DNA of 32,665 nt from a virus, in IMG/VR virus record IMGVR_UViG_3300036790_000293, positions 1 to 32,665 of that record; one strand, written 5' to 3'. The notes beneath the pieces were generated by a model, which saw only the letters and a list, made by a program, of their open reading frames with translations, searched no databases and was not told the DNA's origin. The position numbers and the translations under genes are program-made. Positions 6,783 to 28,800 of the stretch are shown piece after piece; the stretch's first letter is position 1, and each line of letters opens with the position of its first letter.

Positions 6783-8419
6783 GATGTGAACCCGAGCGCC
6801 GCCCCGGCGTAATACCATGAGCCGGCCGCGTCGTTGAGCGCCGCGTCGTAGACGAACGCGACCACGTCCGTCTTGCCCGATGCGGCGCTCCACGCGGGCG
6901 CCCCGGCGGCGCCGAAGTCGAATACCGCGTTGAACTCCGGCGTGAACGAGCCGGAGTACTTGACCCGGATGCGGATCGCCTGCCCGTCCACGGGATTGGA
7001 CGGCGCGGCGAGCGTGTGGCTGCCGGCGCCGAGCGTCCACGAGAACTCGTTGCCGAGGGCGGCGTTGAGCGCCACCGAGGACCCGTCGGTCAGCGCGGTG
7101 ACCTTCGGCGCGACGTACGCGGGGAACGCCGCGCCGCCGGCCAGGTTCGTGGCGGTGGCGGCGTTCCCGGTGGTGGACTGGTTGAGGGTGGGGACGTCCC
7201 CGGAGGCGATGGTCCCCCACGCCGGGGCGGCCGACGCGGAGCCCGTCCCGGTCTGGGTCAGGAACAGCTTCGTAGTCGAGGTGTTGCCGGCGAGACGGGC
7301 GGGCTCGGGCCCGGCTCCCTCGTAGATGACGTCGCCGACGGTCGTCATCGGGTCGGCGAACCCCGACGACGGGGTCTCCCAGTCCGCCGCCGTGGACGAC
7401 GTGGCGGTGAGCACCTGGCCCTCGCTCGGCGCGGTCGCCGCCGAGACGACCACCGTCGTGGTCGCGCTCTTGAGCCCCGCCGCGGCGGTGGCCGTGGCCG
7501 CGTTGCCCGTGGTGGCCTGGTTCAGCGTCGGCACGTCGGCGGCGGCCAGCGAGCGGAACGAGGGGGCGCCCGTCCCGCCGGTCGAAGGGCCCGCGAAGAC
7601 CGAGTTCTGGGCGGCGGTCGCCGCGCCTGTGCCGCCGCGGCCGACCGTGACCGGCGTCGCCAGGCGCACCGTCGGGTCGTCGCCGGTGCCGCCGACGACG
7701 ATCGAGGAGTCCGCCGCGGTGACCGAGCTGACGTCCCCGTCCCCGCTCGGGGACCCCCACGCCGTCGCGTTGCCGTCGCCAGTGGCCACGGGGACCTCGC
7801 CCGACGACGGGGTGCCCGACGGCAGCGGGAGGTAGGGGGTCATCATCGTCGTGCTCGAGACCGGGGTGAGCGCCGACAGGTTCCACTGGGCGACCGTGAC
7901 CGACCCCGAGCCGGCCCCCGTCGACGCGATCGGGTCGCCGCCCGACGTCGCCGCGAGCTCGAACGTGTCGTCCGAGGCGCTCACGACGTAGTAGGTGGTC
8001 GCGGCCTCGAAGCCGGCCGGGAGCGAGTCCCCCGACAGCCGCACGCCGGTCCCGTTGGGCAGCTCGGTCAGGTCGTCGGTCGGCGTGAACGTGAAAACGC
8101 AGGGGGTCGCGTCGGTCGCGGTGAAGTCAGTCGGCCCTGCGGGGAGGAAGAACGAGTACGCCGCGGGCGCCCCGGCGGCGTTGACCGTGATGCCCCACGT
8201 CCACCCGGTCGGCGACAGGTCCGGGTCGTCCGTCGGGATCAGGGCGACCACCGGGGCCGACTCGCCGCCGAAGGACGCCGTCACCGGCTGCCGAGTCACG
8301 ACGGCCTGGTCCTGCACGTCGGTCAGGACCGCGGACGGCTTCAGGGCCGCCGACCCGGACGAGAGGAGATCCAGGCCGGCGTACAGGTCAAGCACGAGAT
8401 TCACGCTCGGGAGCGCCAC
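6779..8419 (-). CDS. tail fiber protein with repeated motifs
   Basis: The 546-aa protein looks like a trimeric tail fiber: low-complexity Ser/Thr/Gly/Ala composition, a GGTGAAT turn typical of fiber shafts, and two copies of the motif ADVPTLNQxTTGNAATAT (residues roughly 415 and 290). The N-terminus (MALPSVNLVLDLYAGLDLL) is followed by a beta-rich domain with a TTYYVVSASDDTFELA segment. The C-terminus FAFVYDAA... SWYYAGAALGFTS is like phage fiber ends. The gene is chosen to start at GTG 8419 because GGAGGTG lies 7 nt upstream; the open frame continues upstream but through the terminator at 8476-8500 and into the endolysin gene. It ends in ATGA with the tailspike gene. Role: host attachment, inferred from composition and position. 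Confidence 0.75.
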   Translation of the reverse strand: MALPSVNLVLDLYAGLDLLSSGSAALKPSAVLTDVQDQAVVTRQPVTASFGGESAPVVALIPTDDPDLSPTGWTWGITVNAAGAPAAYSFFLPAGPTDFTATDATPCVFTFTPTDDLTELPNGTGVRLSGDSLPAGFEAATTYYVVSASDDTFELAATSGGDPIASTGAGSGSVTVAQWNLSALTPVSSTTMMTPYLPLPSGTPSSGEVPVATGDGNATAWGSPSGDGDVSSVTAADSSIVVGGTGDDPTVRLATPVTVGRGGTGAATAAQNSVFAGPSTGGTGAPSFRSLAAADVPTLNQATTGNAATATAAAGLKSATTTVVVSAATAPSEGQVLTATSSTAADWETPSSGFADPMTTVGDVIYEGAGPEPARLAGNTSTTKLFLTQTGTGSASAAPAWGTIASGDVPTLNQSTTGNAATATNLAGGAAFPAYVAPKVTALTDGSSVALNAALGNEFSWTLGAGSHTLAAPSNPVDGQAIRIRVKYSGSFTPEFNAVFDFGAAGAPAWSAASGKTDVVAFVYDAALNDAAGSWYYAGAALGFTS

Positions 8420-14382: not shown

Positions 14383-15168
14383 CTAGCTGACCACGACGTC
14401 GGCCGGCGAGCCCACGAGAGACAGGACGTCCTGCCACGTCGAGAGCGCCCCGGTGACGTCGGACCATTCGGCGTAGTCGTCGGCGAGCGTCTGCCAGATC
14501 GCGGTCGTGCCGGTGACCGACGGGTCGGGGGCGGCCGCCTCGGTGAGGGGGATCGTGACCCAGCGCTGCTGCGTCGGGACGGTGTTGCGGGTCTCGGTCG
14601 TGTCCCCGCATGCGAAGTAGCCGCCGGCGATGATCGACCCCGACGGGACCTGCAGCAGCAGCACGTCGCCGGTCTCCAGCAGCGCGTTCAGCGCGGCGAG
14701 CTCGGCCAGGTCGGCGGTGGCGACCGTGAGGGCCCACTGCGCGGACGCCCGCGGCAGGCTGACCACCACGGGGAGCGAGCTGCCGACGATGTTGAAGACG
14801 CCCGACATCGACGGCCGGGTCACGTCGCCGACGTCCGACGGGGTGACGGTCATGTTCAGGAAGGGGAACCTGATGTGCTTGAGCCACCACTGCCCGGCCA
14901 GGTCCGGGGTGATGCTGTCGTCCTGCTCGGTGTGGGAGGACGGCACGACCCGGTAGTAGTTCAGGGTGTCGGGGGCGAACTCGTAGTCGTCGAGCGGCAG
15001 CGCGCTCGAGGTGAGCGCCACGGCGGAGCCGCCGCGGACCGTCGTCCAGCGGACCTGGTCGAGGGACCGCTGCACGACCGCGGTGTCGTCGGCGCCGATC
15101 GCGGTCCGGACCGCGGTTAGGCTGACCTGCACCCGCGACAGGGTGCCGTCGTAGCTGAGGTACGTCAC
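14383..15168 (-). CDS. distal tail protein (Dit-like)
   Basis: The 261-aa protein starts VTYLSYDGTLSRVQVSLTAV and contains RSLDQVRWTTVRGG, DYEFAPDTLNYYRVVPS, FPFLNMTVTPSDVGD and a C-terminal helical-beta part ending DVVVS. Size, content and place directly after the tape measure suggest the distal tail protein that joins tube and baseplate. GTG start overlaps the tape-measure stop (GTGA). An Ig/fibronectin-like fragment may be present in residues 20-85. Confidence 0.68.
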   Translation of the reverse strand: MTYLSYDGTLSRVQVSLTAVRTAIGADDTAVVQRSLDQVRWTTVRGGSAVALTSSALPLDDYEFAPDTLNYYRVVPSSHTEQDDSITPDLAGQWWLKHIRFPFLNMTVTPSDVGDVTRPSMSGVFNIVGSSLPVVVSLPRASAQWALTVATADLAELAALNALLETGDVLLLQVPSGSIIAGGYFACGDTTETRNTVPTQQRWVTIPLTEAAAPDPSVTGTTAIWQTLADDYAEWSDVTGALSTWQDVLSLVGSPADVVVS

Positions 15169-18100
15169 GGCGTCAGGCCCGCCCCGCCGCGCGCCATGGT
15201 GAGGATCTTCTGGTCGTGCCGCCGGATCTCGCCGCGGACGACGCCGAGCAGCTCCCCGGAGTCGAGGTACAGATTCCCGGTGAACTCGCCGCCCGTGGCG
15301 GGCGCCGTCGAGGCGGCCCGCGCGGTGCCGGACCCGGATCCCCGCGGCGCCGGGACGGCCGCGACGGCGAGCCGGGACGCGGCGCCCTCGACGTGGCGGA
15401 CGCGGGACAGCAGCCCCTCCTCGATGCCGATCCCGGTGAACTCGCCGATGCCGTAGGTGATCTTCGACGGGGAGTGGATCCCGAGTTCCTTCTTCAGGGT
15501 GGCGACCATGCTCTTGGCGATGGCCTCCATGAGCTTGGTGATGGACGCCTGCTGGGCCTTGAGGCCGGACAGGAACCCCTTCCCGGCCTGCTTGCCGCTG
15601 TCGTACATCTCGTCGGCGGCGGTCTTGCCGAGGGAGTTCGCGGTCTTGGTGATGGCGGCCTGGGCGGCGTTGGCCTGCTGGATCCCGGACGCGCCGGAGG
15701 TGATGAGGGCCTGGGCGAGCTGGTCGCCCTGGACGGGGCCGGCGTCGATGATCTGCCCGAGCAGGGCCGTGCCGAGGCCCATCGCCTTCAGCCGGGTGAT
15801 GTCGTGGGCGAACTGCCTTATGGCGGTGAGCTGCCCCTGCAGGCCGGAGACGATCCCGGCGCCGTCGATGACGCCGCCGGCGGCGGACTGCAGGCTGGTC
15901 AGCTGCGCCCCGGACGCCACGTTCCCGGCGACGGTGGTCGCGTACTTCTCCGCGGTGGCGATCGTCGCGGCGATCTTCGCCCGCTTCGTCGCGAGGGACT
16001 GCAGGCGGGTGTTGTCCTTCTCGAGCCAGCCGGTCAGCGCCGACGCCCTCGGCGCGCTGATGGCCCCGGCCGACCAGGCGGCCTTGACGTAGCCGAGCAG
16101 CTTGCCGACGGCGGACTTGACCTGGGCGGCGGTGGTGGCGCCGGACAGGGACGCGATGAGGGCGGCCTTCATCTCCAGGCCGATCGTCGCCAGCGCCTTG
16201 ACGATCCTGTCCTTGCGGGAGGTCAGGGCCGCCTGGATCTTCAGGGTCAGCTGCGCGGCCTGGGAGGCGCTGATCTTCCCGGCGGCGAGCTCGTCGTTGA
16301 TGGCCTTCATCAGGCTCTTCGCGGCGGCCCTGGCCTTCGGGAGGGTCTCGGTGACCCCGGAGCCGATCCGGTCGGTGATGGCCGCTCCGAGCTTCGCGGC
16401 CGCGGTGGACGCCCCGGCCTTGGCCAGGGACGTCAGGTCCGACGCGAGTTTCGTGGTGATCCGGGACAGGAGGCTCTGCTCCTGCGCGGAGGTGATCTGC
16501 CCGGCGGAGTAGGCGGCGGTGACCTGCGCGGCGAGGGACGCCGCGGCCTTCTCGGCCTTCGCCGCGGTGGCGCTGATGCCGAGCGCGAGCCCGGTCGTGA
16601 TGTAGGTGCCGAGCTGGTAGAACACCTTCGACGGGCTCGCGGACTTGATCTTGGACGCGAACCAGCCGATGGCGCGGGAGCCGAGGGACGTGATCTCGTT
16701 CTTGAGCGAGGCGGCCTTCGACTCGATGCCGCCGGTGAGCCCGTCGACGATGCTCTTCCCGGCGGACGTCAGCCAGGTCCCGGCGTTCGCGAACTGGCCG
16801 GTCACCCAGCCCTTGGCCTTGTCGACCTCGGTCAGCACCCAGTGCTTGCCCGAGTCGAACCCGGACGCGAAGAAATGCGCGCCCTTGGATCCGCCGGAGG
16901 TGAAGAAATGCGGCAGCGAGCTGGTGAACCAGGAGGTGAGCTTCCCCGCGAAGTCCCGCTGGAAGTCCTGGTAGGCCGGGGACCATAGCTTGCCCGGGAT
17001 CGTCTTGGTGAAGAAATGCGGCAGGGACCCGGTGAACCACGAGGTTATCTTGCCGGCGAAGTCGCGCTGGAATCCCTGGTAGGCGGGCGACCAGAGCTTG
17101 CCGGGAATGGTCTTATCGAAGAAATGCGGGAGCGACCCGGTGAACCAGGACGTTATCTTCCCGGCGAATTCCCTTTGGAAGTTCTCGTAGGGGTCGGACC
17201 AGAGCTTGCCCGGGATCGTCTTGGTGAAGAAATGCGGCAGCGACCCGGTGAACCACGATGTGACCTTCCCTGCGAAGTTCCGCTGGAAGTCCTCGTAGGC
17301 GGTGGACCACACCCGGTCGACCGGGCTCGACCTCGAGCCCGCCAGCTGGGCCTGGTAGGCGGCGTAGCCGGGCGACCCGGGGGCCGGCTCGCCGCCGGCG
17401 CCCTTGGGTGCGGCGCCGTAGGGGCGGGGGATCCCGATGCCCGCGATCGGCATGGTGACCGACGCCGCGTTCTGGGATCCGCCGAACAGGGTGTTGGACA
17501 CCGCCTGGACCGGCCCCGGGACGGCGGACTGGTACTGGCGGACCTGCGTCTTGGTGGCGGGGTGGACGGCCTTGGCGATCATCCCGGCGATGTTGCCGGC
17601 GATCAGGGCGATGACGACCCCGCCGGCGGCCGACTTGAGCCACCCCGCGACGCCGATCCCGACGGCCGCCTCGTCGCCCGCGGTGACGCCCCCCGCGCCC
17701 GCGCCCGCGCCGGCCCCGCCGACGGTGGCGTCCTCGGTCATCCCGGCGGCCTTGAGCATGTTCAGGCTGGCCTTGTACATGACGTCGCCGGCGGAGGTCA
17801 TGTTCGCGGCCGCCGTCGTGGTCGCCGACACCGCGGGAGTCTTCCTCGCCTCGAGGATCTTGCTGATCCCGGTGAGCTGCCCGGCCTTCTTCAGCCCGGA
17901 GTAGATCGCGGTCGCCGCGGCGGCGGCGAGGATGAGCTTCCCGGCGATCTCCGTCCACGGCTTCACGTCGGGGCTCGTCAGCCAGCCCGCGATCTTCTGG
18001 ACGTCGGGCAGGACGGTCTTGTCCAGGTACCCGGCGAACTGCGTCACCGGCGGCAGCAGGTCCAGGCCGAGGCGGATCCCGAGCGTGTCGACGGTGGACT

Positions 18101-19130
18101 TCAGGAGGTCGAACTGGGCGGCGGCGGTCTTCCGCTGGGCCGCGACGGCGGGGCCGTACGCGCCCGTCGAGCTGTTGATCTGGTCCTGCTTCTTCTTCAG
18201 CACGGCCAGGTTGTTGATCATCGTCAGGATGGCCGAGCTGGACCGGCCGCCGCCGAACGCCTTGGACAGCAGGATCGCCTGCTGCGACGCGGACAGGCCG
18301 CTGGCGTCCAGGTGCTGCTTCAGCAGCACGATCGTGCCCACCAGCCCCTGGGGGCTGCGCATCTCGTTGGCGAGCTGGAGGCCGGTGATCCCGATTGTGC
18401 CGAGCACCTTGGACGCGGCCAGCGACGGGGCGCCGAGCAGGGACAGGGACATCTTCAGGCGGGTCGCGGCGCTGTCGGCGGGGACGCCCTCGTCGGTCAT
18501 CAGCGCCAGGGCCGCGCCGACGCTCTTGAGGGACACCCCGAAGGTGCGGGCGGCGGGGAGGATCCCGGTGCCGAACGCCCCGACGAGGTCGGTCATCTGC
18601 ATGTTGCCGGCGCCGATGATCGCGTTGACCGTCGCGGCGGTCTGCCCGAACGACTGGGCGCCCTTGACGCCGGACCGCCACGCCCCGGCGAGCGCGTTGG
18701 TGGTGTCCTCGAGGTTCGACCCGCCGACCGCCGCCAGGTCGGACGCGGTCTTGAGCGCCTTCATCGCGTTCGCGTTGTCGAGGCCCACGCTCTTGAGGTG
18801 GAACAGCGCGAGGGCGAGCTCCTGCGGTCCCTGCTGGGTCGACGGCGCCATCTTCAGGACGGACTTGGTCAGGGAGTCGACCGCCGACTGCGATGCCCCG
18901 GCCTGCGTGTGGATCTTCTCCATGCTGGCCTGGAAGGTGACCGCGGACTTGACCGACTCGACGGCCACGGCCGCGGCGCCGGCGGCGATCGCCAGCATCG
19001 CGACCTGGGCGGCCTTGCCGAGCTTGCCGAACTTGGAGTCGAGCTCGTCCGCCGACGCGCCCGCGGCCTCGAAAGCGGGGCTGGCCCCGTCCACGCCGAT
19101 GAGGCTGTAGATGACCGTCGTCGTCGACAC
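15165..19130 (-). CDS. tail tape measure protein
   Basis: The 1321-aa protein is the longest in the window. Residues about 60-260 match the TP901-type tape-measure core (FQASMEKIHTQAGASQSAVD, GTGILPAARTFGVSLKSVGA, ALMTDEGVPADSAATRLKMS). A hydrophobic segment near 497-520 (VVIALIAGNIAGMIAKAV) could insert in the host membrane on DNA injection. Residues about 606-742 hold four tandem 36-aa repeats (see the repeat entry). Long alanine-rich helices follow. A second GKGFLSGLKAQQASITKLME segment and GIHSPSKITYGIGEF lie near the end. Function: sets tail length and helps assembly and DNA passage. GTG start, GGTGAG upstream. It ends in GTGA with the Dit-like gene. Confidence 0.95.
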   Translation of the reverse strand: MSTTTVIYSLIGVDGASPAFEAAGASADELDSKFGKLGKAAQVAMLAIAAGAAAVAVESVKSAVTFQASMEKIHTQAGASQSAVDSLTKSVLKMAPSTQQGPQELALALFHLKSVGLDNANAMKALKTASDLAAVGGSNLEDTTNALAGAWRSGVKGAQSFGQTAATVNAIIGAGNMQMTDLVGAFGTGILPAARTFGVSLKSVGAALALMTDEGVPADSAATRLKMSLSLLGAPSLAASKVLGTIGITGLQLANEMRSPQGLVGTIVLLKQHLDASGLSASQQAILLSKAFGGGRSSSAILTMINNLAVLKKKQDQINSSTGAYGPAVAAQRKTAAAQFDLLKSTVDTLGIRLGLDLLPPVTQFAGYLDKTVLPDVQKIAGWLTSPDVKPWTEIAGKLILAAAAATAIYSGLKKAGQLTGISKILEARKTPAVSATTTAAANMTSAGDVMYKASLNMLKAAGMTEDATVGGAGAGAGAGGVTAGDEAAVGIGVAGWLKSAAGGVVIALIAGNIAGMIAKAVHPATKTQVRQYQSAVPGPVQAVSNTLFGGSQNAASVTMPIAGIGIPRPYGAAPKGAGGEPAPGSPGYAAYQAQLAGSRSSPVDRVWSTAYEDFQRNFAGKVTSWFTGSLPHFFTKTIPGKLWSDPYENFQREFAGKITSWFTGSLPHFFDKTIPGKLWSPAYQGFQRDFAGKITSWFTGSLPHFFTKTIPGKLWSPAYQDFQRDFAGKLTSWFTSSLPHFFTSGGSKGAHFFASGFDSGKHWVLTEVDKAKGWVTGQFANAGTWLTSAGKSIVDGLTGGIESKAASLKNEITSLGSRAIGWFASKIKSASPSKVFYQLGTYITTGLALGISATAAKAEKAAASLAAQVTAAYSAGQITSAQEQSLLSRITTKLASDLTSLAKAGASTAAAKLGAAITDRIGSGVTETLPKARAAAKSLMKAINDELAAGKISASQAAQLTLKIQAALTSRKDRIVKALATIGLEMKAALIASLSGATTAAQVKSAVGKLLGYVKAAWSAGAISAPRASALTGWLEKDNTRLQSLATKRAKIAATIATAEKYATTVAGNVASGAQLTSLQSAAGGVIDGAGIVSGLQGQLTAIRQFAHDITRLKAMGLGTALLGQIIDAGPVQGDQLAQALITSGASGIQQANAAQAAITKTANSLGKTAADEMYDSGKQAGKGFLSGLKAQQASITKLMEAIAKSMVATLKKELGIHSPSKITYGIGEFTGIGIEEGLLSRVRHVEGAASRLAVAAVPAPRGSGSGTARAASTAPATGGEFTGNLYLDSGELLGVVRGEIRRHDQKILTMARGGAGLTP
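16896..17312 (-). repeat. four tandem 108-bp repeats inside the tape measure gene
   Basis: The plus-strand marker gaagaaatgcgg recurs at 16902, 17010, 17118 and 17226, exactly 108 bp apart. Encoded units of 36 aa read like LWSPAYQGFQRDFAGK then ITSWFTGSLPHFFTKTIPGK; variable positions are few (A/E after Y, D/E/N before F, T/D/S near the end). The units are rich in W, F and Y and in turn residues. DNA identity is high but not perfect, so the duplications are fairly recent or held by selection. Confidence 0.95.
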
Positions 19131-19152: not shown

Positions 19153-19718
19153 CTACGGCTTCTTGTCGGCCTCGGCCTGCGCGGCGGCCTCTTCCTCGTC
19201 GCGGATCCGGTACTCCGCCTGCCACTCGCTGAGCTCGCGGGCGGAGATCCGCTCGAGCAGCTCGGCGACGGTGCAGCCGAGATTCTCCGCTAGGTGGAAG
19301 AGGAATCTTCGGCTTGGGCGGGCCCGGAGAAATTTGCGAGCGCGTCGACGTCCTCGGCGGTGAGGCCGGACAGCTCGGCGGCGACGTCGAACAGCCGGTC
19401 GAGGACCGCCCCGGCCTTCTTCCCGAGCGCGGCGGCGTCCTCGTCTTTGAACAGGCGCTTCCCGTCGGCGTCGACGAGCGCGCGGACGACGAGCTTCGCC
19501 CGGATGTTCAGGATGCTGCGGTGCATCTCCATCTGCCCGCGGATCCGCTTGCCGTCCTTGTCGACGGCGGGCCGCTCGATCATCTGGGACGCCTCATAAG
19601 CGTCCCGCTCAGTACCCGACAGCCCGCGGACCAGCACTGAGCCGCCCCATTCTGGAACGCTGACCTCGCGGGTCTCGATGTCGACGGCCTTCAGGATGTC
19701 TGCGCCGCTCAGCGGCAT
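19153..19718 (-). CDS. tail assembly chaperone GT, -1 frameshift product
   Basis: Long form of the chaperone made by slipping from the frame of 19290-19718 at 19329-19335. After the slip the frame reads LRARPSRRFLFHLAENLGC, TVAELLERISARELSEWQAE, YRIRDEEEAAAQAEADKKP and stops at 19153. The stretch RFLFHLAENLGxTVxELLxRxSxRELxEW is the standard second half of siphophage GT chaperones. It has no start codon of its own and lies directly before the tape measure. Both forms coat and fold the tape measure during tail assembly. Confidence 0.85.
19290..19718 (-). CDS. tail assembly chaperone G (short form)
   Basis: The 142-aa protein (MPLSGADILKAVDIETREVS, GSVLVRGLSGTERDAYEASQ, LFKDEDAAALGKKAGAVLDR, AELSGLTAEDVDALANF) matches the G-type tail assembly chaperone of siphophages. 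It is expressed in excess over the GT form. Unshifted reading ends 13 codons after the slippery site in ...EDSSST. ATG start with GAGG 5-6 nt upstream. It follows the tail completion protein gene and precedes the tape measure, the conserved order. Confidence 0.88.
   Translation of the reverse strand: MPLSGADILKAVDIETREVSVPEWGGSVLVRGLSGTERDAYEASQMIERPAVDKDGKRIRGQMEMHRSILNIRAKLVVRALVDADGKRLFKDEDAAALGKKAGAVLDRLFDVAAELSGLTAEDVDALANFSGPAQAEDSSST
19329..19335 (-). promoter_or_regulatory. -1 ribosomal frameshift site A AAT TTC
   Basis: Minus-strand bases 19335-19329 read A AAT TTC, an exact X XXY YYZ heptamer, with AAT and TTC in the zero frame of the chaperone gene (codon start 19334). A -1 slip gives AAA TTT and opens the frame that ends at 19153. 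A GGGCCC-rich segment just downstream could form the stimulatory structure. Confidence 0.82.
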
Positions 19719-19725
19719 GCCTGCC

Positions 19726-20238
19726 TCATTTCAGGGTGATATTCCGGGTGATTGAGTCGACTACGGCCTCGATGCCCGCGCGGCCTCGCAGGCCGAGGGA
19801 CTTCAGGGCCGGGTAGAACCAGGGGGTCGCGTCCTGCTCCGCCCACGGGATGTCCGGGTTCCCGTAGACGGGATGCCGCCAGGGGGACTTAGTCCCCTCG
19901 GAATAGGCGGGGAGGGCTCCCTGCCCGCTCGGCATCCGCTTGGCGTCGGCGCGGATGTTGACGCCCGCCCGCTTCCCGGTGGTGCGGACGGTGAGGTGCA
20001 CCGACTTCGACAGCCGCTTCCGCAGCCCCGTGGACCCGGAGGTGCCCTTGACGGGGATGTCGAGCGCCGCCCGCTTCACGACCGGGACGAGCGGCTTGGC
20101 GACCGCCCGGAGCTCGTTCCGGAACCGCCGGGTGATCTCCTTGTTGTCCATCCGCCGCAGCTGCTTGGCGATGACGCGGAGGTCGGCGCCGCTGCGCACC
20201 ATGGCGTCGCCGCCCACGTAGCGGCGGGGCGGCGCCAT
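19726..20238 (-). CDS. tail completion / HK97 gp10-like protein
   Basis: The 170-aa basic protein reads ADLRVIAKQLRRMDNKEITR, FRNELRAVAKPLVPVVKRAA, and TGLRKRLSKSVHLTVRTTGK, similar in pattern to HK97 gp10-like head-tail closure or tail-completion proteins (helical N-terminus, beta C-terminus, FYPALKSLGLRGRAGIEAVV near the end). ATG overlaps the tail tube stop by one base (TGATG). An internal ATG (MVRSGADLRV) 13 codons in is an alternative start. Position between tail tube and chaperones supports a tail role. Confidence 0.65.
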   Translation of the reverse strand: MAPPRRYVGGDAMVRSGADLRVIAKQLRRMDNKEITRRFRNELRAVAKPLVPVVKRAALDIPVKGTSGSTGLRKRLSKSVHLTVRTTGKRAGVNIRADAKRMPSGQGALPAYSEGTKSPWRHPVYGNPDIPWAEQDATPWFYPALKSLGLRGRAGIEAVVDSITRNITLK

Positions 20239-20735
20239 CAGGACGACGGGACGAGGATGTTCTCCGAGGGCTCGGAGGTGATGACGAACGAGATGACGAC
20301 CTGGCCGGGGTCGGTGGTCGTCGTCTCCTTCGACGCCGAGGAGACGGTGACGGGGAACACGTCCATCGTCTTGGTGCCGCTGACGCCCTCGTCGTCGCCC
20401 TCGGGGAACTGGACGATGAAGCCGGTGGTGTCGCGGGGCAGCACGGTGCGGACGTCGACCGAGTCCTCGTCGAGGTAGATGTTCATCGACGAGGCGTCGG
20501 CGGTGATCATGCCGGGGACCTGGGACGTGAACCGGCTCTTCAGGTCCGGGGCGTCGACCGGGTTGGTGGTGGTGGTGAACCCGGTGACGGACATGATCTC
20601 GCCGGTCAGGTCGGTGCCGGCGTCGAGCTCGTCCCTGGTCGGGGCGGTCTTGTCCGCGATCGTCGCTACGAAGTAGTACTGCCTCAACCCGACCGGGAAG
20701 TACCTGGTCACCGTCGAGAGTGGCGTTGCGGCCAT
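20238..20735 (-). CDS. major tail tube protein
   Basis: The 165-aa protein (TRYFPVGLRQYYFVATIADK, PTRDELDAGTDLTGEIMSVT, VPGMITADASSMNIYLDEDS, DGTKTMDVFPVTVSSAS) has the size and beta-rich fold pattern of siphophage tail tube proteins and lies in the usual place before the chaperones. ATG with AAGGGAG 6 nt upstream. A terminator lies just before it, so it depends on read-through or its own promoter; high expression would be expected. Confidence 0.82.
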   Translation of the reverse strand: MAATPLSTVTRYFPVGLRQYYFVATIADKTAPTRDELDAGTDLTGEIMSVTGFTTTTNPVDAPDLKSRFTSQVPGMITADASSMNIYLDEDSVDVRTVLPRDTTGFIVQFPEGDDEGVSGTKTMDVFPVTVSSASKETTTTDPGQVVISFVITSEPSENILVPSS

Positions 20736-20756
20736 GGCTGCTCCCTTGGGGCATGA

Positions 20757-20784
20757 GAAAAGCCCCTGGCGGCTGCCGGGGGCT
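20757..20784 (-). terminator. terminator between decoration-like and tail tube genes
   Basis: AGCCCCTGGC at 20761-20770 pairs with GCCGGGGGCT at 20775-20784 around a GGCT loop with one mismatch, followed on the minus strand by TTTTC (20761-20757). It is 23 bp past the stop of the 111-aa gene. Confidence 0.8.
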
Positions 20785-20806
20785 CGGGGCGGAAGGTCGG
20801 GCGGCG

Positions 20807-21142
20807 TCAGGAGACCTGGAAGACGCCGACGGTCAGGTCGGCGTAGGCGTCGTAGGACAGGTGCGCCAGGCCGTCGGAGGGCTGCTTGTAGATCTCCAGG
20901 AGCGGGATCATCTTCGTGCCGCCGGAGCCGGTGGCCGGGATGGTGACGGTCCGGCTGGTGACCGCCTGTCCGTCGACCGTCTCGGGGATCGGGATGGTGA
21001 CGGTGTGCGAGGCGGTGTCGCTGTTCTTGACCTGCAGGAACAGGCCCGAGCCGACGGCGCACTTGTCGCCGCTGGAACCGGCTGCGGCGTAGGTGGGGGC
21101 GCTGCCCGCGTGGGCGAGCGGCTGCGTTGCGAGGGTGGCCAT
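20807..21142 (-). CDS. small beta-sandwich virion protein, probable head decoration
   Basis: The 111-aa protein (MATLATQPLAHAGSAPTYAA, GSGLFLQVKNSDTASHTVTI, GTKMIPLLEIYKQPSDGLAH, SYDAYADLTVGVFQVS) has an Ig-like beta-sandwich pattern often seen in small actinobacterial phage virion proteins near the head-tail genes. Its own ribosome site (AAGGAG, 5 nt before ATG) and the terminator right behind it point to high separate expression, as for decoration proteins. No direct proof of location on the head rather than the tail. Confidence 0.6.
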   Translation of the reverse strand: MATLATQPLAHAGSAPTYAAAGSSGDKCAVGSGLFLQVKNSDTASHTVTIPIPETVDGQAVTSRTVTIPATGSGGTKMIPLLEIYKQPSDGLAHLSYDAYADLTVGVFQVS

Positions 21143-21186
21143 GTCGCTCCTTAGTGCTTCCGGAGGGGACGGACGAGAATGGACGC
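21143..21186. promoter_or_regulatory. divergent gap with -10-like box for the plus-strand gene
   Basis: The 44-bp gap carries GAGAATGGACGCATG at its right end: a TANNNT-like -10 box (GAGAAT) followed by 6 nt and ATG, the spacing of a leaderless start. A clear -35 is not seen (TTAGTG is 19 nt upstream). On the minus strand the gap holds the AAGGAG site for 20807-21142. Confidence 0.35.
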
Positions 21187-21681
21187 ATGAACGGACAAAG
21201 ATCAGCCGTCGGCGTTCCCGAGGACGGGATCGCCGCCGCCGCCGCTTGGTGGGCGTCCCGGCTCGGGAACTGCCATCACGACCCCATCGGCCTGGACGCC
21301 CCGGACAAGGCGCTCTCTGTCGACGACATGCAATGGGTGATCGAGATGAACCTTCAGGCCAAGCGGGGGAAGTACGATCCCGGGCAGCTCGAGAGGTACC
21401 GGGCCGCGCTCGCGGAGGCCATATGGGAGCACCTGCGCGGCTGCCCTGGCGCCGGCACGTGCGGGGGGAGGAGCGTCGGGCCCGGGCGTCACACAATCGC
21501 GTGCGACTACGACCCAGACCAGACGCTCTGCAGCGGTGCCGCCCGGGCGGGGATCGAGCTCGACTCCCTCGACCTTCCATGCAAGACGACCATGCTCCTG
21601 CAGGCGGACTCCATCACTGTCAGCGAAGGCTACGGGGGGCCGTGGATGACGATCTGGGACGGCCGTCCTACGGGTTCGTGA
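21187..21681 (+). CDS. plus-strand moron, unknown function
   Basis: A 164-aa acidic protein on the strand opposite to the operon: GIAAAAAWWASRLGNCHHDP, ALSVDDMQWVIEMNLQAKRG, QLERYRAALAEAIWEHLRGC, CGGRSVGPGRHTIACDYDPD, SITVSEGYGGPWMTIWDG. A pattern like AWWAxxL ... DYxPD ... WKTTM ... GYGxPxxTI recurs in small proteins of actinobacterial phages, but I know no function. Cys pairs (C109, C114 region) are too spread for a clear zinc motif. Start at ATG 21187, just after a -10-like box. Its end overlaps the end of the minus-strand connector gene by 14 bp. Confidence 0.65.
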   Translation: MNGQRSAVGVPEDGIAAAAAWWASRLGNCHHDPIGLDAPDKALSVDDMQWVIEMNLQAKRGKYDPGQLERYRAALAEAIWEHLRGCPGAGTCGGRSVGPGRHTIACDYDPDQTLCSGAARAGIELDSLDLPCKTTMLLQADSITVSEGYGGPWMTIWDGRPTGS

Positions 21682-23002
21682 AGGCGTCGATGTCGACCCC
21701 GAACCTGACGGACGCCTTCGCGCCCCTCGGGCCCATCGACGGGGTGTAGGAGGTGGCGCCGACGGTCGCGAGCATCACGGTCCTGCCGAGCCGGGGGTTC
21801 GCGGCGATGAGCCCGGCGCAGGCCGAGACGATGGCGTAGGCGCGCTCGCGGGCGGGGACGAGGCCGTCCGACGCGCCGCGGACCACCTCGACGGTGTTCG
21901 TGATCGTGTACTTCTCGCGGGACCGGGCGGCGGACAGCCCCTCGATCGCGAGGGAGCCGGCGATCTCCGGGCCCTCGGGCTCGGGGTAGGTGCCCTTCGT
22001 GCTCATCCGCTCCCCGGACCAGCCGGCGAGCAGCCACTCCAGGGCGCTGGACGAGCTGACGATCGGCCCGTCGGCGATGTGGACGCCCGCGAGGGCGCAG
22101 CCGGGCGCCGTCGCGGCGGTGAACATGGCCACCAGCGCGGCGAGCGCCGCGGGCTGCGTCGACTGCCAGGCCATCGGGGCTCCTAAGAACACGATCGGGC
22201 GCGCGGGCCCGATCCACTCGAGCACCTTGCGGGGGAGCATCGTCATCTGCTTCCAGTCGTCGGCTTCCTCGGGGCCGATGTCGCCGGCGCCGACGGTCCC
22301 GGCTCCGCGGCGGGTCTCCCACAGGTGCTGGAGCAGGACGGAGGCGCCTTCGATGTAGTGCTCGGGGATGACCGCGTGCCCGGCGGTGTAGACGGAGGTG
22401 ACCCAGCCGAACGGCCGGGGGCCGGCCAGGCGGTGGACGAGCCCGGACTCGGCGTCGACCCGGAAGTTGCCGACGTCGTAGGTGGTGGTCCCGGCCTCGG
22501 TCTCGCCGGTCAGCGCGTCGAGGCTGATGACCGGCGGGCGGAGGAGCCGCAGCGGCTCGTGGCGGGCGTGCATGCCCGTCTGGGTGACGCTCCGCCTGGC
22601 GATGCTCTCGTTCTTCGCCCGCTCGAGGGCCCGCGTGAGCCCGGCCAGCTTGGCCCGCAGCTCGGCGTCGTCGGTCGTGTCGGCGAGGTCGATGCCGAGC
22701 CTGACCTTGGCGTCGAACAGGGACAGGATCGACGGCGACGCGGCGGCGGAGACGTCGAACACGTCGGTCCACGCGCAGTCGGGGTTGGCCGACGTCCAGC
22801 GGACGACGTGCCGGCCTTCCTGCGCGGTCGGGTAGGCGTAGCGGTAGGAGCCGGTGACCGCCGGGGGGTTGGCGACGTCGGGGGTGTCGGTGGTGGCGTC
22901 GGGCAGTGTGAAGGTGAGGGTCACCGTCTCCGCGTTGGCCGGGTTCCCGTTGCCGTCGCGGACGGCGAACGAGGCCGGGTAGTCGGCGCCGAGGTCGATC
23001 AC
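21668..23002 (-). CDS. Ig-like + head-tail connector + tail-terminator-like fusion
   Basis: The 444-aa frame joins three parts. Residues 1-85 are an Ig-like domain (YPASFAVRDGNGNPANAETV, EGRHVVRWTSAN). About 95-270 are a gp6-type connector (FDAKVRLGIDLADTTDDAEL, PVISLDALTGETEAGTTTYD, YIEGASVLLQHLWETRRGAG). From 277 onward a tail-completion/terminator-like domain follows (MAWQSTQPAALAALVAMFTA, SSALEWLLAGWSGERM, RFGVDIDAFTNP). At the joint (codon 277, 22174) stands ATG with AGGAG 5 nt upstream, and a shift of one base just before it would give a TAG stop, so the third part probably started as a separate gene and may still be made alone. GTG start at 23002 overlaps the glycosyltransferase stop. 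Confidence 0.75.
   Translation of the reverse strand: MIDLGADYPASFAVRDGNGNPANAETVTLTFTLPDATTDTPDVANPPAVTGSYRYAYPTAQEGRHVVRWTSANPDCAWTDVFDVSAAASPSILSLFDAKVRLGIDLADTTDDAELRAKLAGLTRALERAKNESIARRSVTQTGMHARHEPLRLLRPPVISLDALTGETEAGTTTYDVGNFRVDAESGLVHRLAGPRPFGWVTSVYTAGHAVIPEHYIEGASVLLQHLWETRRGAGTVGAGDIGPEEADDWKQMTMLPRKVLEWIGPARPIVFLGAPMAWQSTQPAALAALVAMFTAATAPGCALAGVHIADGPIVSSSSALEWLLAGWSGERMSTKGTYPEPEGPEIAGSLAIEGLSAARSREKYTITNTVEVVRGASDGLVPARERAYAIVSACAGLIAANPRLGRTVMLATVGATSYTPSMGPRGAKASVRFGVDIDAFTNP
22174..22184 (-). promoter_or_regulatory. internal ribosome site and ATG in the connector fusion
   Basis: AGGAG at 22184-22180 and ATG at 22174-22172 in frame (residue 277, MAWQ). It could allow separate translation of the terminator-like domain, 21668-22174, 168 aa. 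Confidence 0.5.
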
Positions 23003-24120
23003 GCGGAGGCGCCCGGCTCCCCGGCGCCGCCGGGCGCGGATGCGGTCTTCCGGGCGCGCTTGGCGGCCGGGCCCGGCGGCGCGGGGTCGGCGGTCTTCGC
23101 GGCCGGCGTTCCCGCGCCCGGCTGGGACTTGAGCCCGGACAGGAACCCCTCAGCCGCCCCCGCGTCCTTGGCGTCTCCCGGCCCGTCGGGCGCAGGGGCC
23201 GCGGGCACCGCGGGCCCGGGATCCGGGTCGCGACCCGTTCCGGGGACGAGGGTGAAGAACGCGTGCCCGGCCCTGAGCACCGGGTGGCCCTCGGGGAACC
23301 GGTCGCCCTTCTTGACGCCGATCGCCCTCCCGTCGCCGGCGTCGGTGACGAAGCCCCTGTTCGCAACGTACGTGTCGTCTTCCATGGCTGCCTCTCGGGT
23401 CGCGGGCCTTGCGGGCGGGTGCCAGTGGTCGTCGGGGGCGCCCGGCCGGGTGCCGGCCACGGCGCGGACCGTCGCGGCGTCGGCGCCCATCCGGGTCATT
23501 CGCCATGCCTGGTAGGCGGCGTAGTCGGCGGGGCCGTTCCGCTCCGCCTCGGCGTAGGTGCGGTCGCGCTCGGCCCCGGTGCCGGGGACGTGGTAGTGCA
23601 GGTGCGGGACCAGCGCGTCGCGGACGTACCGCAGGCATCCCGCCGACCGGCCGATGTCGGCCAGCACGTGGTCGGCGTAGTAGTGGACCAGGGAGGGCTC
23701 GAAGAACCAGCCGAGCGCGGTGACGATCTCCGAGGAGACGAAGGGGTGCTCGGGGATGTCGTCCCGGCGCCGGTCCTCCGGGTAGGCGATCCCCGGGGTG
23801 GCCAGGGCCTCGGCGAGCATCAGGTCCCAGCCGGGGGCCTGGGGCGCGCAGTCGTCGGCGAGGAACCCGACCGCCCGGTAGCGCTCCGCGGCGGGGACGC
23901 AGACGGCGTTGAGCTTCGGGGTGAGCCACATGCGCGGCAGGACCGTCATGCTGGCCCGGTCCGGCAGCGCGAGCCCGGCGTAGGCGTCCTGGTCGTCGTC
24001 GTCGGTGACGACCAGCAGGTCCGTGTCGCCCTGCACGGTATCGGCGTAGGCGGCGAGGAAGCGGTCCATGAGCTTCCGGCGCCCCCGCGTCGGGACGACC
24101 ACCAGCAGGCCCGCGGTCAC
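22999..24120 (-). CDS. GT-A-like glycosyltransferase fused to a small head-type domain
   Basis: The 373-aa frame has an N-terminal GT-A-like glycosyltransferase: LLVVVPTRGRRKLMDRFLAA, LLVVTDDDDQDAYAGL, LTPKLNAVCVPAAERYRAVG, FLADDCAPQAPGWDLMLAEA (a DDC in place of DxD near residue 88). It also has HLHYHVPGTGAERDRTYAEA. From residue 246 (MEDDTYVANRGFVTDAGDGR, GVKKGDRFPEGHPVLRAGHA) it continues as a domain that resembles a small separate protein of phage head regions, then a Pro/Ala tail. ATG at 23385 with AGAGG 5 nt upstream marks a possible internal start. The likely acceptor is a virion protein or a host-wall-like glycan. The end overlaps the connector gene (GTGA). Confidence 0.72.
   Translation of the reverse strand: MTAGLLVVVPTRGRRKLMDRFLAAYADTVQGDTDLLVVTDDDDQDAYAGLALPDRASMTVLPRMWLTPKLNAVCVPAAERYRAVGFLADDCAPQAPGWDLMLAEALATPGIAYPEDRRRDDIPEHPFVSSEIVTALGWFFEPSLVHYYADHVLADIGRSAGCLRYVRDALVPHLHYHVPGTGAERDRTYAEAERNGPADYAAYQAWRMTRMGADAATVRAVAGTRPGAPDDHWHPPARPATREAAMEDDTYVANRGFVTDAGDGRAIGVKKGDRFPEGHPVLRAGHAFFTLVPGTGRDPDPGPAVPAAPAPDGPGDAKDAGAAEGFLSGLKSQPGAGTPAAKTADPAPPGPAAKRARKTASAPGGAGEPGASA
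23385..23395 (-). promoter_or_regulatory. internal ribosome site and ATG in the glycosyltransferase fusion
   Basis: AGAGG at 23395-23391 followed after 5 nt by ATG (23385), in frame at residue 246. A product of 128 aa (22999-23385) would be the small head-type domain alone. Confidence 0.45.
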
Positions 24121-24578
24121 CCGCGCTCCCTGATGCGGCGGATGATCTCGCTGGTGGAGATCGGGGAGTGGTGCTCGTACGGCACGTAGGCGAGGATGAT
24201 GCGGTGCTCGTCGAGCCAGTCGGCGGTGACGTCGACCTGCCTGAGGTAGTCCTTGCGGGCCCAGTCCGACCCGACGGCCAGCACGTCGGGGCGCGCGCGC
24301 TCGATCAGCTCCCGGCCCGCCGACTTGTTCAGGATCACCGGGTAGCCGAGCTGGCCGACCGCGTGCATCCGCTCGTCCTGCGTCATGATCGGCCGCCGCT
24401 TGTAGCTCGCGGCGAACTCGTCGCTGTTCACGCCCACCGACAGGCTGCCGCCGAGCCTCGCGGCGGAGCGCAGGAAATCGACCTGGCCGTGGTGCAGCAG
24501 ATCAAAAGTGCCGATGGTCAGGACTCTCGTCGCGGCGGCTCCGGGCTGTGTCCTGCACGCGCAGTCGGGGGCGATCAC
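24117..24578 (-). CDS. cytidylyl/adenylyltransferase (RfaE/TagD-like)
   Basis: The 153-aa protein has the nucleotidyltransferase signatures: VLTIGTFDLLHHGQVDFLRS (GTFDLLHHGQ, near residues 23-33, where the usual final His of HxGH is Gln), KRRPIMTQDERM, and ISTSEIIRRIRERG at the C-terminus. The family couples CTP or ATP to a sugar phosphate or polyol phosphate to give an activated donor, as GCT/TagD and the RfaE C-terminal domain do. It could make the donor for the two neighbouring glycosyltransferases. The His-to-Gln change is unusual for the active-site HxGH, so activity is open. GTG start overlaps the preceding stop; its own end overlaps the next gene (ATGA). Confidence 0.82.
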   Translation of the reverse strand: MIAPDCACRTQPGAAATRVLTIGTFDLLHHGQVDFLRSAARLGGSLSVGVNSDEFAASYKRRPIMTQDERMHAVGQLGYPVILNKSAGRELIERARPDVLAVGSDWARKDYLRQVDVTADWLDEHRIILAYVPYEHHSPISTSEIIRRIRERG

Positions 24579-25777
24579 AGGCCGGCCTCCAGCTGCTCGA
24601 GGACCGGCTTCCAGTGCTGGGTGAGCACGGCGTCCGCGTCGTAGGCCAGCGCGTGCGGCCGCGCCCGGGCGGCCTTGGCGCGGTAGTCGGTGCCGCGCCG
24701 GTAGGCGTCCTCGTAGGCGCGTGCGATTCCGTCGATCGACGGCTTGCGCCACCATGCGGCGTGGGCGAGGGACCAGTACGGCTCGCCCTGGACCTTCCAC
24801 CCGCAGCCGACCTCGGACATCGCCGACCCGTCGGTGACGACCGTGGGGACGCCGGCCGACTGGGCCTCCAGGACCGGGAGCCCGAACCCCTCGGCGAGCG
24901 TGCAGCCCGAGAACAGGTCGAGCGCCCCGTACCAGGCGGCGACCGCCTCGGTGCCGACCTGCCCCGACTGGATCAGGTAGTCGTCGGACCACCCGACGGC
25001 CTTCGCGATGCCCATGTCGCGGGCCATGCGCCTCAGCTTCAGGCCGTTCTTCTCGTCATCCTGCGTCATGATCATCAGGAAGGCGTCGGCGTGCCTGCGG
25101 TGGAACTTCGCGAACGCGGCGAGGTTCTCCGGCCACGCCTTGCGGACCTTGTCGTTGTTCGCCGCGTTGATCCCGATGACGAACCGGCCGTCCAGCCCCG
25201 CCATGCGGCGCAGCTCGTCCCGGTCCGCCGGCGGGGCGTAGACCGTCGTGTCGATGCCGTGCGGGGCGAAGAGCGGGGAGTGGCCCGACCTCTTCAGCTG
25301 CGTCTCGCCGAACCTGGACATGGCGATGGGGACGCCGCCGCCCTGCATGAGGTTGAGGTGGTCCTTCAGGCCGATCGACCGCTCGAGCACGTCGCCGGAG
25401 CGGCCGATGATGCCGCCGCCGTCGTCGCAGTCGACCGGCATCCAGTGGGCGACGGGGATCCCCGAGTCCTTCCACGGCTCCGGGTCCAGGCAGAACACGT
25501 CGCCGAGGTGGATGACCAGGTCGGCCTTGAAGTGCCTCGCGTGCTTGGCGAGGACGTCGGCGCCGTACGGGTCGCGGCCGCCGGGGTAGACCCGGTGGCC
25601 CTCCCACTCGTCGACCCGGCCCTGCTGGCCCCAGAACGCGGAGACGGCGACCTCGTGGCCGAGGGCGGCGATGCGCGGGACCCACAGCGCCGACTGCGTT
25701 CCGTAGCCGGAGCCGGTGGGGTGCAGCGCGTCGCGCCCGGGGTGCACCGAATGCCAGACGATCCTGACGGCGATCAT
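24575..25777 (-). CDS. GT4-family glycosyltransferase
   Basis: The 400-aa GT-B protein shows N-terminal HPTGSGYGTQSALWVPRIAA, LGHEVAVSAFW and a C-terminal donor-binding half with FVIGINAANNDKVRKAWPEN and the GT4 hallmark LAEGFGLPVLEAQSAGVPTV (ExFGxPxxE). It uses an activated sugar, perhaps the one made by the neighbouring nucleotidyltransferase. Placed directly after the capsid gene, it could glycosylate capsid or tail proteins, as reported for phage glycosyltransferases near structural genes. ATG with GGAGGGG just upstream; the stop overlaps the next gene (GTGA). Confidence 0.88.
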   Translation of the reverse strand: MIAVRIVWHSVHPGRDALHPTGSGYGTQSALWVPRIAALGHEVAVSAFWGQQGRVDEWEGHRVYPGGRDPYGADVLAKHARHFKADLVIHLGDVFCLDPEPWKDSGIPVAHWMPVDCDDGGGIIGRSGDVLERSIGLKDHLNLMQGGGVPIAMSRFGETQLKRSGHSPLFAPHGIDTTVYAPPADRDELRRMAGLDGRFVIGINAANNDKVRKAWPENLAAFAKFHRRHADAFLMIMTQDDEKNGLKLRRMARDMGIAKAVGWSDDYLIQSGQVGTEAVAAWYGALDLFSGCTLAEGFGLPVLEAQSAGVPTVVTDGSAMSEVGCGWKVQGEPYWSLAHAAWWRKPSIDGIARAYEDAYRRGTDYRAKAARARPHALAYDADAVLTQHWKPVLEQLEAGL

Positions 25778-25870: not shown

Positions 25871-28800
25871 CTACAGCGTGACCATCATCCGGAACGCGTT
25901 GGCGGTCAGGCAGAGGGAGCTGTTGCGCCACAGCGCGTAGATGCCGCGCTGCCCGGTCGGGTAGTTGCTGGTGCCGCCGAACACGTGCGGCACGAGCTCG
26001 ATGCTCATCCCGACCCTGTCGACGATGATGAACTGCTTGAAATCCCCGAGGATCAGGAGCTTCTTGCCGCTGGTCAGGGCGGCGTCCATCACGGAGTTCT
26101 CGAACACCGGGTAGCCGATCAGCTCGGCGGGGGTCCCGGCCGAGGGGCGCACCCACGGGTCGCCCGCGGCGGACGCCTCCTGGGTGAAGGCCTGCCGCGC
26201 GAAGTTGTACGCGGTCTTGGAGCCCAGCCACGACGCCTGCGGGCGGAACCGCGGCGGGACCGCGTCCTCGACCGCGTAGACGTCGCCGTAGGCGACGGTC
26301 GCGGTGCCGGCCGTCTTGACCTCCGACGCCGTGCCCGACCCGGTCGACAGGGCGGTGACGATGCCCTGCGGGATGTCGCCGGTGCCGGCGCCGGTCGCGA
26401 ACGTCCCGGCCTCCTCCACGTCCTTCGCGTCGGCGAGCATCATGCTGATCTCGGCCATGAGGCCGTTCCAGTCCTGCTCGACCTCGACGGAGAACGGCAC
26501 GAACGCCTGGACCCGGGTGGGCTGGACGCCCGGCTGGACGAGGGTCGGCGAGCCGTCGGTGGCCTCGTCGAGCTCGTTCGCCCGGGACACGGTGATCCCG
26601 GCGGAGGTGACGCCGAGCCATTCCTTGCCGACGATCTGCTCGACCCGGCTGATCTGCCGGATCGCGTTGATCGCCCCGTTGGACGTCAGCGTGACGGTCG
26701 GGTCGAGCTGGTAGGGCACCGGGTAGGAGCCGGACGACCACGACGCGGAGGTGCCCATCTCCAGGGCGCGCTGGACGGCCGCCTGCTCGGAGCCGGTCAG
26801 CGTGAGGGTGGTCCCCCGGGTGATGATCTTCTCGAACGCCCGCATGTACGCGGGGTCGCTGGTGACCAGCATGTGCCGCGCGAACGTGGCCTGCCGGTCG
26901 TCGGCGACCGCCAGCAGCCGCTCGATGCCCGCCTGCACGTCCTCGCGGGAGCGCGACTTCTCGCCGGGGAACCGGGCCAGGTCCAGCGACCGCATCGCCC
27001 GGTCCCGGTACTCGCGCACCAGGTCCTCCGGGCTGCGGGAGCGCTGCCGCGCCTCGGTGAGGTCCCAGATGTTCCCCGGGCGCCCCGTGATCGCGCCCAC
27101 GCCGCCGGACCGCCAGCCGGGCTCCCGCACGGGCGGCACGTCGGTCGTCAGGCCGCGGGCGCGCTCCAGGGCGGCGTCGCCGTCGTACCCGGACCCCGGG
27201 TCGGTGCCCCCGATCGTGGCGTTCGGGTTCTGCGCGAGCGCGGAGAGGGTCTGCGCCCGCTGCGTGGCGTCCCTGATCGCCGCCTCGTGGAGGACACGCT
27301 CCTCCAGCAGGGTGTTCCACTCGCTGCGGGTATCGGTGGGCAGTTCGGCGCCCGCGTACTCGCTGTCGATGTCGCCGAGCCTGCGCACGATCTCCTCGAC
27401 CCGTGCCGCCCGCTCCGCGACAGTCATCCTGTCGTCAGCCATTGCGTTTCCTCTTTCGGTCGTCGCGGTTGCCGAGTGCGTGGGCGGCTCGGTCTTCTCG
27501 GCGGCCGGGGTCCCGGTGCCGCGCTCCCCCGAGGGGGGAGAGGTCTGGTGGGAGTGGCTGTGGGCCGCGTCCCCGTCGTGCTCGTGCGGGTGCGTGTGGG
27601 TGGCGTCGCCGCCCTGCGACCCGAAGGCCGAATGCGAGTGGGTGTGCCGGCCGGTGACGGGGGCGTGGCCGGTCAGGTCGGTGTCCGCCGCGGCGGCGGC
27701 GCGCGAGCCCTGCGTGCCCGATCCGTCTGGCTCGTAGTCCGGGCTCACCCGCTTCATCGCCGCCTGCAGCGTCTTCTTCGCCTCGGCCGCGTTGGTCAGG
27801 CCCTCGGTCTGCGGGAGCCGCGACAGCGCGTTCTTCACCCCGGCCGCGTTCGGCGGGCTCGACGGCGTGTACTTGTACGGCAGCGCCCAGGCGTCCTGGG
27901 TGGACTTGTCGCCGGCCTTCTCGCCCGCGCAGATCCCCGCGTAGAACGCGGCGGGGTCGTCGGCCTCGGCTCCGTTGTGCCAGGCCTTCGACGCGTCCCA
28001 GTCGGAGTTGTCGACGGCTGCGGCGCGCTCGGCGTCATCGCCGTCCGGGTCGTCCGCGCTCTCGGCCGCCGCGTCGTCGTCAGTGCTGTCGTCGTCGTCC
28101 ATCGCGGCCGCGCGGCCTGCGGCTGCGGTCACAGCGTCCGGGGCGGCTCCGTAGGCGCTGGCGGGCAGCCCGTGGCCGCACTGGTCGCAGTAGACGGCGT
28201 CCGCGTCGTTGGACCGCATGCAGTTCTGGCACTGGACGTTCTCGCCGGGCTGCTGCTCGTACCCCTGCCGGCCGGTCGGGTAGGCGTAGCCGGGGAGCAT
28301 GTTGCCGCACTGGTCGCAGCAGTTCGCGTCCGGCATGTTGTAGACCGCGTTCGCCCCCTGCGAGCAGGTGGGGCAGCGGACGTTCTCGCCCTGCTTCTGC
28401 GAGTACGGGACGGGACCAGAGGCACGGGACTGCGATCGCACGCCCACCACCTGCGCTTCCTCGTAGTAGGGGATGGGCGTGGGCCCGTACTCGATGAGTG
28501 CGATCTCCTGCCGCGTGACCAGCCGGAGGTTCCCGCGGGCGTCGGCGTGGTAGCGCTGGCCCGGGCGAAGTGGCGGGTCGGAGCGCAGGAACGCGCCCGT
28601 GAACGACATGCCGCGCAGGCTGCCGTTGCGGATCGCCGACAGGATCTGGTCGGCCCACTGGTCGGCCGCGTCGTTGTAGCGGGTGACGGTCAGCAGGCCC
28701 TTGGCGTCAGGCTTGATCGATATCGGGCGCCCGACTGGGACGGACGCCAGGTCGCTCGGAGAGCCATGCAGAGTTTTTGCGTGGTTGTAGACGCAGAAGA

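Follow-up and report, generated by a model that had tools for sequence, protein, structure and literature searches.

The window, as we term the whole 32,665-base uncultivated virus record analysed here (IMGVR_UViG_3300036790_000293, positions 1 to 32,665), raises the question of what four closely similar aromatic units in tandem are doing in a phage tape measure protein (TMP). The bodies of these proteins tend to be poorly resolved and difficult to align, and exact whole-unit changes in related phages represent a natural experiment on the evolution of tail length. The answer that we favour, and hold to be probable, is that the array is a member of a zone of aromatic repeats in siphophage TMPs whose units would be helical, would pack, and would act as exchangeable modules of length.

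The identity of the host protein, which the preliminary description of this DNA took to be a tape measure, is borne out by both Pfam and PHROG families. In addition to the PhageMin_Tail domain (Table 1), tail length tape measure protein is the name given to 17 of the 24 PHROG families listed, and the match to phrog_5493 stands at 8.4e-37. The surrounding gene order is that of siphophages, in which the major tail protein gene is followed by a chaperone gene with a putative frameshift and then by the TMP gene. The strict slippery heptamer in the chaperone gene, together with the open -1 frame, is likely a programmed frameshift that would give a second form of the chaperone. This resembles the classical G/GT arrangement.

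Table 1. Features of the TMP gene and its neighbours in the window (aa, TMP residues)
Feature	Position	Strand	Basis
TMP gene, 1321 aa, GTG start	15165..19130	-	ORF, Pfam, PHROG
Single sister-repeat copy (45-aa type), from about aa 775	16674..16808	-	Profile, 37.7 bits; end inferred from unit length
Aromatic unit 4, aa 715-750, final few residues diverged	16881..16988	-	TRF and self-comparison
Aromatic unit 3, aa 679-714	16989..17096	-	TRF and self-comparison
Aromatic unit 2, aa 643-678	17097..17204	-	TRF and self-comparison
Aromatic unit 1, aa 607-642	17205..17312	-	TRF and self-comparison
Hydrophobic segment, aa 492-523, about 85 residues ahead of the array	17562..17657	-	Kyte-Doolittle scan
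PhageMin_Tail domain, aa 89-293	18252..18866	-	Pfam, E 5e-18
Tail assembly chaperone	19290..19718	-	Phage_TAC_1 3.2e-7 (Pfam), phrog_344 3e-29
Slippery heptamer AAATTTC within the chaperone gene	19329..19335	-	-1 frame open to 19153
Major tail protein, upstream of the TMP gene	20238-21188		Pfam/PHROG

TRF reported an array of period 108 at 16899-17309 (3.8 copies, 81% matches), corresponding to four tandem units of 36 residues at aa 607-750 of the TMP. With the phase taken from Trp, the units share 21-31 of 36 amino acids and 71-94 of 108 nucleotides with one another, and since they differ at the DNA level the array is not an assembly duplication. At a lag of 36, the best 108-residue stretch of the protein matched itself at 86 of 108 positions, as compared to a maximum of 26 in 200 shuffles (lags 5-119). 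Phe, Trp and Tyr together make up 23.0% of the array as compared to 3.8% of the remaining TMP. Both the four tandem 36-residue units and the richness in W, F and Y that had been read from the letters are thus upheld.

The array contains eight Trp residues, each 18 apart (608, 626, 644, 662, 680, 698, 716 and 734), and after it three more follow at intervals of 11 (764, 775 and 786), so that the window TMP has the 11/18 spacing of W/F published for aromatic TMP repeats. Among the window units dS is 0.42-0.87 and dN 0.08-0.28, which indicates purifying selection and argues that the protein sequence of the unit has been conserved since duplication. An alignment of ten units, drawn from the window and three further distinct viral contigs, shows no change at the W, Y, F, F, P and F positions.

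The array falls within a class that is already known, that of aromatic TMP repeats, and represents a variant of it as regards the length of the unit, its content of proline and the period of its stripe. Passages of a study of phage TP901-1 (PMC5099701) describe the TP901-1 TMP as having 29 proposed repeats, each of 11 or 18 aa, and report a 40-aa aromatic unit in the TMP of Lactococcus phage p2 (ORF14); our repeat scan of the latter recovered the 40-aa period with 68% identity. Like the window TMP, that of p2 carries aromatic tandem units in its C-terminal half behind a chaperone gene, whereas the p2 unit has 40 aa, a period of 3.62-3.64 and no proline in its printed example, and the window unit 36 aa, a period of about 4.0 and two prolines. 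The TP901-1 TMP shares with the window the Trp/Phe markers 11 and 18 apart, as far as the passages describe them, although its repeats are weakly alike (best 45%), as compared to an identity of up to 94% across one unit length among those of the window. Portions of Belcaid 2011 (PMC3271669) trace the duplication and loss of 11-aa W/F-marked units in Clostridium and Staphylococcus (pro)phage TMPs; aromatic-marked units in variable number are common to these and the window, but the unit there is of 11 aa as compared to four of 36 aa here, and the 18-18 Trp spacing of the window differs from their patterns (seven W/F at 11; 11-11-18), compared by description. The titles and abstract openings of the literature searched describe no 36-aa TMP unit. 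A 2688-aa protein (L108, 3135-11201) contains seven aromatic repeats of 35 aa in tandem, 75% alike, which have FFTTTIPxWF cores and a hydrophobic period of 3.88; these resemble the window unit in motif and period rather than over an extended sequence, and would be at most putative homologues of it.

Searches with the array itself returned little. PHROG gave short, low-scoring matches only, with no stretch passing alone, and a search of a plasmid collection gave no match. Among 50,697 phage records there was one weak match, to a hypothetical protein of Phage C48C1 (E 2e-3, 24% identity), which we treat as chance; the repeat region of the relative L021 matched none of the phage records, and the whole TMP found no relative in genome contigs. 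Unit-alignment matches in genome contigs of Flavobacteriales and Hymenobacter (L026-L028) were dropped as short low-complexity repeats of the SLPHFLTS type.

A hydrophobic stripe runs through the units. With F, W, Y, I, L, V and M taken as hydrophobic, single units peak at a period of 3.8-3.9 (permutation p <=0.0005) and the array at 4.00, an exact value that is partly automatic because a tandem array yields only harmonics of its own length. Every fourth position of the consensus is F, I or L in eight of nine cases, with Ala in the remaining one. A unit period of about 3.9-4.0 is unusual as compared to 3.5-3.66, and the array does not have the hendecad-type period (about 3.64-3.67). One continuous aromatic stripe of period 3.6 was also considered and found weakly supported (p 0.036 for F/W/Y, 0.23 for all hydrophobics), the signal near 4 being stronger. 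Each unit contains two prolines, and its stripe period does not fit a simple straight coiled coil, which counts against the packing proposed below. AlphaFold, given the array and three relatives, produced a low-confidence model (mean pLDDT 55) that is almost wholly helical (aa 603-638, 645-673, 680-710, 713-756 and 758-799) with breaks near IPGKLW, and this faintly suggests that the units are kinked helical rods.

The stripe of the window can be placed within a survey of hydrophobic periods in which 45 non-redundant proteins, of 65 given, were read in 120-residue segments. After aa 380, strong peaks occurred in 251 of 694 segments (8 of 694 in a shuffled control), with 209 of the 251 at >=3.635; in the N-terminal part 24 of 180 segments were strong, and 20 of these 24 lay near 3.5. 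For TP901-1 and p2, the peaks lie at 3.60-3.68 in the repeat halves and at 3.38-3.60 in the strong segments of the N-terminal halves. Since the strong segments of lambda gpH lie at 3.52-3.58 and phiC31 rises above 3.6 once (3.64), the trend above 3.6 in TMP bodies does not extend to every TMP. With about 3.9-4.0, the window array stands at the far end of the observed range. One unit of L015 (1479-1520), a carrier described below, had no periodicity (p 0.55), and two other units gave only p 0.06-0.09.

Relatives sharing the N-terminal domain were gathered by scans of viral contigs, one of which took the best 80 of 112 relatives, and by BLAST with that domain. The resulting set holds at least 90 ORFs, at least 76 of them distinct with the window included, and 50 complete TMPs of more than 900 aa. 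At a profile threshold of 12 bits, chosen by us, these 50 complete TMPs (from the BLAST and the best 80 of 112 relatives) carry the 36-aa unit in no copies in 48 cases, two copies in L021 and four in the window; a different aromatic unit of 44/45 aa, in one to five copies, was recognized by profile in 47 of the same 50. This sister repeat (motif GxWL...GL..GI) lies in tandem in the TMP zone matching the window array, for instance in L013, L036 and L086, so that aromatic character, tandem arrangement, position and N-terminal homology are all common to the two. In L021 the two 36-aa units are followed by four 44/45-aa copies, as the window array is by its single one. We considered whether the 36-aa unit could be a shortened form of the 45-aa one and rejected this, as the profiles have no detectable similarity (hhalign probability 0.3%, 5 columns). 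In several relatives the C-terminal third of the TMP includes a transglycosylase-like domain, with PHROG transglycosylase matches for L021 and L024, and there is no Pfam transglycosylase in the window TMP.

It is the sister repeat that displays exact steps of length. In the zone at aa 600-980, 115 alignable pairs from the relatives gathered above contain 55 indels of >=15 aa, of which 33 are exactly 45 aa, although the pairs are not independent and by eye represent about five lineages (L073/L074, L065, L069, L047 and L100). The inserted segments are identical to their better-matching neighbour at 19-31 of 45 positions and so are not very recent copies; one 97%-identical pair differs in length by 22 aa. 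These indels support gain and loss of whole units in the zone. The preliminary description had reasoned that gain or loss of units would change the tail in fixed steps; for the TMP itself, such whole-unit changes are supported by the sister repeat. For the 36-aa unit itself the sequences reveal copy-number variation only; an exact gain or loss of 36 aa was not seen because no close relative carrying the unit was found among the relatives examined (best 80 of 112).

Further carriers extend the range of copy number. One contig (L106), fetched after the count and outside the 76 distinct ORFs, has an N-terminal domain of the window type and two units in a TMP cut by the contig end. A 1084-aa protein (L020) has no window-type N-terminal domain and has in common with the window the pre-array linker, the hydrophobic segment and two units, of which the second is truncated. 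In L015/L016 three strong units occur along with five weak ones; L015 (2536 aa) has an N-terminus of another type and only a weak endolysin match in PHROG, its identity as a TMP resting on repeat and size; L024 has weak units only. Several other matches came from the same two contigs as L015/L016 (L017, L018, L022, L023, L029, L030 and L116) or the same contig as L020 (L031, L107 and L115). We excluded from the unit counts L025, which had one short match, and L109-L114, which mainly share the linker; the unit profile found one weak match in these (L110, 12.9 bits) and none in L109 or L111-L114. Repeat counts in relatives, to which the preliminary description had pointed as a check, are therefore not fixed (0, 2, 4 or more), which is the variability typical of aromatic TMP repeats, and the evidence for this comes mostly from distant relatives. 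The unit has apparently been exchanged between TMPs of different ancestry.

What such units might mean for the tail can be gauged from better-studied phages. In TP901-1, according to the passages of PMC5099701 noted above, TMP deletions shorten the tail by 0.145 nm per residue, 127 residues making no contribution, length is tied to TMP residue count generally rather than to aromatic repeats as such, and replacement of a whole aromatic repeat by alanines had little impact on infection. Residue count may thus matter more than aromatic content, and by analogy neither length nor chaperone binding may require the aromatics. On the TP901-1 scale the tail of the window virus would be about 173 nm long, and one unit would account for 36 x 0.145 = about 5.2 nm. 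The lambda tail, by partial accounts, has 32 tube rings; with the 853-aa gpH this is about 27 residues per ring, so that 36 residues equal about 1.35 rings and one unit cannot equal a whole-ring step, and three units come to about four rings. A set of zero to four near-identical modules would make a clean construct for converting residues to tube rings. In lambda and JBD30 tails, as described in the portions of those reports consulted, a trimeric coiled coil of the TMP was modelled only close to the tip, the body being poorly resolved.

Taking these observations together, we propose that each 36-residue unit would mainly form an alpha-helical rod segment, probably kinked at its IPGKLW end, in which Trp recurs every 18 residues and a hydrophobic stripe runs without a break. 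This stripe probably packs against other TMP chains within the tail lumen and, during assembly, probably against the chaperones encoded just upstream. The tandem units would then be interchangeable length modules, each adding about the length of tape given above, and the zone would evolve as whole units are gained, lost and exchanged. We regard this length-module reading as plausible and in part supported.

Alternatively, the 36-aa unit might be a mobile module recombined among unrelated TMPs, serving a putative chaperone or tail-tip partner in a limited set of phages. The motif is indeed common to TMPs with other N-termini (L015, L020) and to the kin of the window, and in L020 the linker and hydrophobic segment accompany it; known carriers are few, however, the partner is hypothetical, and the likeness of the weakest copies (L024, L108) could have come about through convergence on a helical motif of W/F. 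We judge this unlikely. The preliminary description had also suggested a wall- or membrane-active segment, for example interfacial helices that insert at DNA injection once the TMP has left the tail. Such a role would suit the very high W/F/Y content, the net charge of +6, the position after the main hydrophobic segment, and the view in parts of PMC5099701 that TMPs form a channel at injection. The array, however, has a GRAVY of -0.45, contains within aa 607-750 no Kyte-Doolittle window of >=1.6 (a hydrophobic span of about 19 residues), has no Pfam match above cut-off, and is absent from 48 of the 50 complete relatives (best 80 of 112 scan) and so is not a required part; the suggestion goes unsupported, and we consider it very unlikely.

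The tolerance of TP901-1 for alanines (PMC5099701, in part) and the ease with which repeat copies arise could be read as signs of selectively neutral filler from tandem duplication, whose length would matter and whose sequence would not. We see scant chance of this, given the excess of dS over dN between the units and the six residues invariant in all ten aligned units.

A bolder extension of the length-module reading is that the TMP body as a whole is an exchangeable array, in which the unit length would be set by the stripe register needed for chaperone coating or chain packing, and the tail would evolve in quanta. We think this quite unlikely. Unit lengths can be written as whole stripe steps (36 = 9 x 4.0, 35 = 9 x 3.89, 45 = 12 x 3.75, 44 = 12 x 3.67), a match that is partly automatic through array harmonics, the independent evidence being the 3.8-3.9 peak in single units. 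Thirty-six residues are exactly 10 ideal alpha-helical turns, so a period-4 stripe would wind once around a straight helix over each unit; this is an odd helical pattern for an aromatic stripe, and one that a structure could explain.

Other parts of the window hold features of separate interest. At 25871-29044 (-) a single ORF combines a Peptidase_S78 prohead protease, a stretch resembling a double zinc ribbon, with repeated CxxC motifs, for which the Pfam zinc-ribbon match was under cut-off, and an HK97-type capsid domain. Between the capsid and head-tail genes, at 22999-25777 (-), lie a group 1 glycosyltransferase, a cytidylyltransferase-like ORF and one further, unassigned ORF. A 1155-aa ORF at 4419-7886 (-) has laminin-G-like, Ig-like and apiosidase-like catalytic domains, and from these its product is perhaps a tail-tip glycosidase.
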